This document shows, one piece after another, positions 1 through 2,708 of a DNA stretch of 64,000 nt. The position numbers and the translations under genes were made by a program. The notes beneath the pieces were generated by a model. That model made no database searches, had not been told where the DNA came from, and saw nothing but the letters and a program-made list of their open reading frames with translations. The stretch spans positions 1-64,000 of the forward strand of contig CAJWJK010000002.1 in NCBI GenBank assembly GCA_913041535.1, given 5' to 3'. This DNA is from an uncultured Alphaproteobacteria bacterium (GTDB lineage Bacteria > Pseudomonadota > Alphaproteobacteria > VGEJ01). Each line of letters begins with the position of its first letter. Positions within the stretch are counted from its first letter, which is position 1.

Positions 1-118
1 TTATCATGGTGTTATTGTCGGAATGCAGAAATGCTTCCCGTTAAATCCTATTGTGTCTTTATCGATTTTCTTTTCTATATTTGCAAGTTTAATAGTGAGT
101 TGAAGTTTAGGAGGTGAT

Positions 119-400
119 TTGAATAAGGAATCAACCGTTGACAATCCATTAGTTGTAGGTATGTCTGGTGCAAGCGGTTCCATAATAGCATCTAAACTAG
201 TAGACGCTTTGATAGAGCGAGATATTCAAGTTGCCCTAATAGCCTCACATGCTTCAAGGATAGTTTGGAAACAAGAGATGGATGAATCTTTTGGTGAGTT
301 TATAGAAAGGACGATTCAAACCGGCAAAGTTAAAAATTATCAAATTGGTGATATCCAGGCGCCAATGGCAAGTGGAACTTACAGCGAACTCTATCGCTAA
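119..400 (+). pseudogene. ubiX: UbiX flavin prenyltransferase, N-terminal half only
   Basis: UbiX joins a dimethylallyl group to FMN to make the prenylated flavin cofactor of UbiD decarboxylases in ubiquinone synthesis. The opening VVGMSGASGS (residues 12-21) is the family's nucleotide-binding loop, and DIQAPMASGTY (about residues 78-88) matches the conserved segment near the middle of UbiX. After that the family sequence stops and the frame ends at TAA 398-400. About 88 of the usual 190 or so residues are present, so the protein cannot be functional as read. The TTG start has an AGGAGG ribosome site at 109-114, four bases away. Directly overlapping in another frame is the C-terminal part of ferrochelatase, so this looks like a deletion junction or an assembly mis-join. 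Family identity is fairly certain; the cause of the break is not. Confidence 0.75.
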
Positions 401-782
401 ACATTTTGTAAAGCAGTATGGGCCATCTGTACGTTGGACTGTGTGCTATCAAAGTCGCGTGGGTCCACTGGAGTGGATTACACCATCAACAGAAGAAGAG
501 TTAAAGAAAGCGGGGCAACGGGGCGAAAGTGTTATTATTGCCCCGATAGCTTTTGTGTCTGAGCATTCGGAAACACTAGTTGAATTGGATATTACATGTC
601 AGAAACTAGCGATTAAATTTGGCGTACAAGAATATAAGCGAGTACCCACACTTAGTTTGTCTGATGTTTTTATTTCTTCCCTTGTAGAACTTATACATTC
701 GGCCGAGTCTGTAGGAATAAATTCACAAGATCACGTCCGAATATGCCCGCGTGAGTACAATAAATGCCCTTATATTGTGTAA
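363..782 (+). pseudogene. hemH: Ferrochelatase, C-terminal part only
   Basis: Ferrochelatase inserts ferrous iron into protoporphyrin IX in the last step of haem synthesis. The frame contains the hallmark C-terminal blocks VCYQSRVGPLEWITPST and the SEHSETLVELD segment carrying the conserved catalytic glutamate, followed by a typical cysteine-containing tail. Family-like sequence begins near QWQVELT at about position 363, and the frame itself opens at a TTG at 345. The first half of the protein, including the conserved active-site histidine segment, is missing; about 140 residues remain of the usual 310-350. It ends three bases before hemJ, the order expected in many alphaproteobacteria (hemH, hemJ, rho). 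The missing N-terminus is replaced by the front of ubiX in a different frame. Function is not expected unless an intact copy exists elsewhere. Confidence 0.75.
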
Positions 783-1451: not shown

Positions 1452-2708
1452 ATGAATTTACTTGAGCTGAAGAGCAAATCCCCAACGGAACTTCTCAATT
1501 ACGCAGAGGAATTGGAAATCGAGAATGCAAGCACCTTGCGCAAGCAAGATATGATGTTTGCCATTCTCAAACAATTAGCAGAAAAGGACATTGAAATCTC
1601 TGGTGGGGGAGTTCTGGAGATTCTTCACGATGGCTTTGGTTTCCTGCGTTCTCCCGAATCGAATTATTTGCCTGGGCCTGACGATATTTATGTTTCACCA
1701 AGTCAGATAAGGCGTTTTGGTCTCCGAACCGGTGACACTGTTGACGGCCAGATTCGTGCACCCAAAGAAGGGGAGCGATACTTTGCTCTGTTGCGAACCA
1801 ACAAGATCAACTTTGAGGAGCCAGAAAGTATTAGACACAAGGTAAACTTTGATAATCTAACGCCGCTTTATCCAGAAGAAATGGTTCGCCTTGAGCTGGA
1901 AGACCCGACGGAGGCTGATGTGAGTGCGCGGGTGATAGATCTTATTACACCTCTTGGTAAGGGTCAGAGAGCTTTGATTGTTGCCCCCCCAAGAACGGGG
2001 AAAACAATGCTGTTGCAAACTATAGCTCATTCCATTGCAGTGAATTGGCCTGACGTCTACTTGATAGTTCTGCTTATAGATGAGCGACCAGAAGAAGTGA
2101 CTGATATGCAACGTTCAGTGAAGGGTGAGGTCATAAGCTCAACTTTTGATGAGCCAGCAGCTCGCCACGTTCAGGTCGCAGATATGGTTAGCGAGAAAGC
2201 TAAACGGCTGGTGGAGCATAAGCGTGACGTAGTAATTTTATTGGATTCAATTACGCGGTTAGCACGGGCATATAATACGGTTGTTCCTTCGTCAGGTAAG
2301 GTTTTAACAGGTGGCGTGGATTCAAATGCGCTTCAAAGGCCAAAAAGGTTTTTTGGAGCTGCTCGTAACATCGAAGAAGGTGGATCATTGACCATTATTT
2401 CAACGGCTTTGATTGATACCGGTAGCCGCATGGATGAAGTAATTTTTGAAGAATTCAAAGGGACTGGAAACTCTGAAATCGTACTTGACCGAAAATTGGC
2501 TGACAAACGCACATGGCCAGCCATCGACATCACAAAATCGGGCACCCGTAAGGAGGAATTGCTAGTTGATAAGGGGACTCTGGCCAAGATGTGGGTGTTA
2601 CGTCGTATACTCTCGCCGATGGGTGTGGTTGATGCCATGGAGTTTTTGCTAGATAAGCTAAAACATACAAAGACCAACGATGAGTTTTTCGACTCTATGA
2701 ATACATAA
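1452..2708 (+). CDS. rho: Transcription termination factor Rho
   Basis: Rho is the hexameric RNA helicase/ATPase that ends transcription at Rho-dependent terminators and couples it to translation. The 418-residue protein is the usual length. It has the N-terminal Rho helical domain (residues 1-45, starting [11 protein letters not shown]), a cold-shock-like RNA-binding domain with [22 protein letters not shown] (61-82), and the ATPase core with Walker A APPRTGKT (178-185). It also has the [10 protein letters not shown] segment and the Q/R-loop region ([13 protein letters not shown]). The gene lies downstream of hemJ. The trmE/gidA/parAB genes that often follow rho in alphaproteobacteria are absent here; the next gene is on the opposite strand. 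Confidence 0.97.

Follow-up and report, generated by a model that had tools for sequence, protein, structure and literature searches.

Does the ubiX front half that runs into a ferrochelatase (hemH) back half at positions 119-782 reflect a change in the genome or an error in its assembly? The window, the whole stretch of DNA that was analysed, comprises bases 1 to 64,000 of contig C2 (256,604 bases), with the window start at contig base 1, and belongs to a draft metagenome-assembled genome (MAG) of 39 contigs and 2.09 Mb with a listed contamination of 4.25%. A sequence-only reading of the locus had left two explanations standing, a deletion of about 1-2 kb or a chimeric assembly. Comparison with the rest of the assembly and with other genomes indicated, with near certainty, that the junction is an artefact of assembly: at its 5' tip, C2 is a chimera of a SAR202-type fragment and the MAG's own hemH. 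The features concerned are listed below, with L028 denoting the ubiA-ubiX locus of the SAR202 cluster MAG OSU_TB39 (VFGY01000021.1).

1 to 103, plus strand: 3' tail of a UbiA-like gene of SAR202 type, in the foreign segment (window 1-381 aligns to L028 DNA at 85% with no gaps)
119 to 382, plus strand: first 88 codons of a SAR202-type ubiX, in the same segment (88% amino acid identity to L028; UbiX profile positions 2-74 of 181)
362 to 382, no strand: the join, a word of about 19-21 bases fitting both ubiX and hemH (C3 homology from 364, SAR202 homology to 381-382)
363 to 782, plus strand: 3' part of the MAG's own hemH (PF00762 positions 206-315; 87% DNA identity in the overlap with C3:3-132)
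C3:1-742, minus strand: 5' part of hemH (ferrochelatase profile match at the tip of contig C3)
786 to 1235, plus strand: intact hemJ (TIGR00701, E=9.5e-48, exceeding the cut-off)
1452 to 2708, plus strand: intact rho (80-88% amino acid identity over 418 residues to the rho of four relatives, in the same place)

The letters around the join were as first described: UbiX-like sequence ends just past SGTY at about 382, ferrochelatase-like sequence begins with QWQVELT at about 363 in another frame, and the claimed overlap of roughly 18-20 bases is family-like in both frames. The open reading frame at 119-400 was UbiX-like in residues 11-88 only, matching TIGR00421 at positions 2-74 of 181 (E=3.5e-10, under the curated cut-off), so that no complete UbiX flavin prenyltransferase domain was present in one frame; past 382 the frame continued to a chance stop at 400. 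The open reading frame at 345-782 resembled ferrochelatase from about base 363 onwards (PF00762 positions 206-315 of 317, E=1.4e-31) and taken alone did not hold a complete HemH domain, of which positions 2-245 were found on contig C3. Between about 364 and 382, ATGGCAAGTGGAACTTAC encodes M A S G T Y in the UbiX frame and CAATGGCAAGTGGAACTTACA encodes Q W Q V E L T in the HemH frame.

Homology to C3 began at 364 and homology to SAR202 stopped at 381-382, leaving a shared word of about 19 bases, the exact form and length of which are uncertain because at base 376 the window has A where both SAR202 references have G. The codon before WQ in hemH is Lys on C3 and Gln in most relatives (GDPYQWQ), one of them with TACCAATGGCA, and bases 362-363 also fit hemH if this codon is Gln. 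If the allele were of this Gln type, ubiX and hemH would share 362-382, a word of exactly 21 bases. This is suggestive, 21 being a usual smallest k for short-read assemblers. A join placed inside a word compatible with ubiX and hemH alike, from about 362 or 364 to 382, is what a false link in a small-k assembly graph would be expected to give.

The source of the two sides was then considered separately. In the scan of genome contigs, the best match of the 88-residue UbiX piece was the SAR202 cluster MAG, with 88% identity over 88/88 residues; the piece also matched a Dehalococcoidia MAG, ALOHA_A2.0_8 (L030), over 22/22 residues, where that contig begins inside the gene and has 94% DNA identity to window 317-382. 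Window 1-381 aligned to the OSU_TB39 locus gaplessly and covered, with the gene order preserved, the UbiA-like 3' end and the ubiX 5' end, whereas the OSU_TB39 ubiX reaches 206 codons and the window ubiX ends at the join. Bases 1-103 are a UbiA-like gene tail, and the UbiA-like open reading frame of L028 ends at the position matching window 103; by this alignment, the tail is also part of the foreign segment. Position by position, identity to SAR202 was 84-85% up to 383 and 22% thereafter. The GC content of window 1-363 (0.37) was near that of the matching SAR202 stretch (0.36), compared with 0.47 in window 3000-64000; that of the hemH part at 364-782 was 0.42, so GC alone would not prove a foreign origin of 1-363. 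The two sides thus matched different organisms, SAR202 as far as 381 and, from 363, the MAG's relatives with their haem cluster. Window 1 to about 363 comes from a different marine bacterium, a relative of SAR202 Chloroflexota, which places the two sides in different phyla.

The other half of the locus was located in the same assembly. A Pfam ferrochelatase search of the genome returned two pieces, C3:2-727 on the minus strand (profile positions 2-245, E=5.4e-79) and the window piece (206-315). On C3, a complete hemE of 350 codons is followed immediately by hemH, which is cut off by the contig end. C3:3-132 and window 364-493 were 87% identical in alignment. Their homology sets in precisely at the join, base 364, and upstream of that base C2 and C3 are unrelated; the true continuation of the window hemH was accordingly found at the C3 tip. 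In four relatives (L036-L039, fetched via hemJ), hemE, full-length hemH, hemJ and rho were contiguous, and none of the four had ubiX beside hemH. The MAG shares this gene order, but its assembly breaks the cluster across two contig tips: C3 carries hemE and the front of hemH, and C2 everything from there on. The overlapping stretches diverge by 13%, which suggests that the assembler was halted here by variation between strains; with 87% identity in place of an exact match, C3 and the C2 tip may also represent different strains.

These findings bear directly on the proposed deletion, in which the genome would have lost about 1-2 kb spanning the 3' end of ubiX, hemE and the beginning of hemH. 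Two gene halves meeting at a short shared word in the letters is what such an event could leave behind. However, the supposedly missing hemE and hemH front exist at the C3 tip, the ubiX piece is SAR202-type DNA, and the four relatives keep hemE-hemH-hemJ-rho in a row with no ubiX next to hemH. Unless C3 proves to derive from some other organism, its tip refutes a true deletion, to which we give next to no credence. The further suggestion that the cell would lack this ferrochelatase and its UbiX also failed, since hemH is split over the C2 and C3 tips and the MAG has its own intact, full-length ubiX at C13:47640-48158. This gene showed no significant DNA similarity to the window ubiX piece, and DNA comparison detected no second copy of that piece elsewhere in the genome. 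The searches for hemH, hemE and ubiX that had been proposed as a check therefore recovered the hemH front and a complete hemE on C3, and a complete ubiX on C13.

A real cross-phylum transfer was also weighed, in which SAR202-derived ubiA-ubiX DNA would interrupt hemH in some cell of the lineage or in a minority strain. The 13% difference between C2 and C3 in their overlap means that two strains may be present, which leaves room for such a variant. Nevertheless, we regard this horizontal insertion as very improbable: the foreign piece reaches the contig end with neither a second boundary nor a mobility gene, it stops inside a gene, the remainder of C2 continues the normal cluster, and the segment occurred in 0/288 other genomes sampled from the class (sample of 289, in which only the MAG itself has it).

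An assembly chimera accounts for the sides from different phyla and for the rest of hemH, together with hemE, lying on C3 of the same assembly, and the chimeric alternative of the sequence-only reading was in this respect upheld; a biological fusion is required by none of the observations. On this account the MAG contig truly begins within hemH, and a SAR202-type ubiA-ubiX fragment was joined to it through roughly 19-21 bases common to the fragment and hemH. The true hemE-hemH-hemJ-rho locus is split between the C3 tip (hemE, hemH front) and the C2 tip (hemH back, hemJ, rho). The false link presumably arose in the assembly graph, at a point where differences between strains had interrupted the correct path. 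It is documented (PMC7299287) that shared k-mers can mislead metagenome assemblers into building chimeric contigs, and the interspecies chimeric contigs of short-read assembly described there resemble this case in the two genomes, the short shared word and the position at a contig end, as well as in a draft with strain-divergent contig overlaps; no point of difference from them was found. A physical chimera formed by template switching during amplification or library preparation, and not in the assembly graph, is unlikely. Template switching at short homology would yield the same sequence, but contig tips of this assembly share exact overlaps of 32, 33 and 55 bases, and several overlap others at 87-98% identity, as strain variants do, which points, though not decisively, to graph breaks at strain variants.

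For annotation, C2:1-363 should be disregarded and hemH recorded as present but split. More generally, a few hundred bases from another phylum can sit at the contig tips of draft metagenome genomes, and neither gene loss nor gene fusion should be called at such tips.

In further support of the chimera reading, this assembly probably has a second chimeric tip, the 3' end of C13. There, at positions 2191-2493 of the fetched tip, halves of two unrelated families meet, the start of an F420-dependent luciferase-like gene being fused in-frame to the middle of IspD; a full-length ispD match is on C9, and within the class the DNA matches of the tip's IspD part were all short and weak. Among the remaining tips, the 3' end of C11 had a GC content of 0.25-0.29 and that of C29 encodes a portion of a second rho that differs from the first; either the tips or the whole contigs may be contamination of the bin. 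The 3' ends of C16 and C22 lie in gyrB/parE-like genes (Toprim domain), have a 44-base stretch in common at 89% and are lower in GC than their own contigs, and are possibly further false joins at conserved words.
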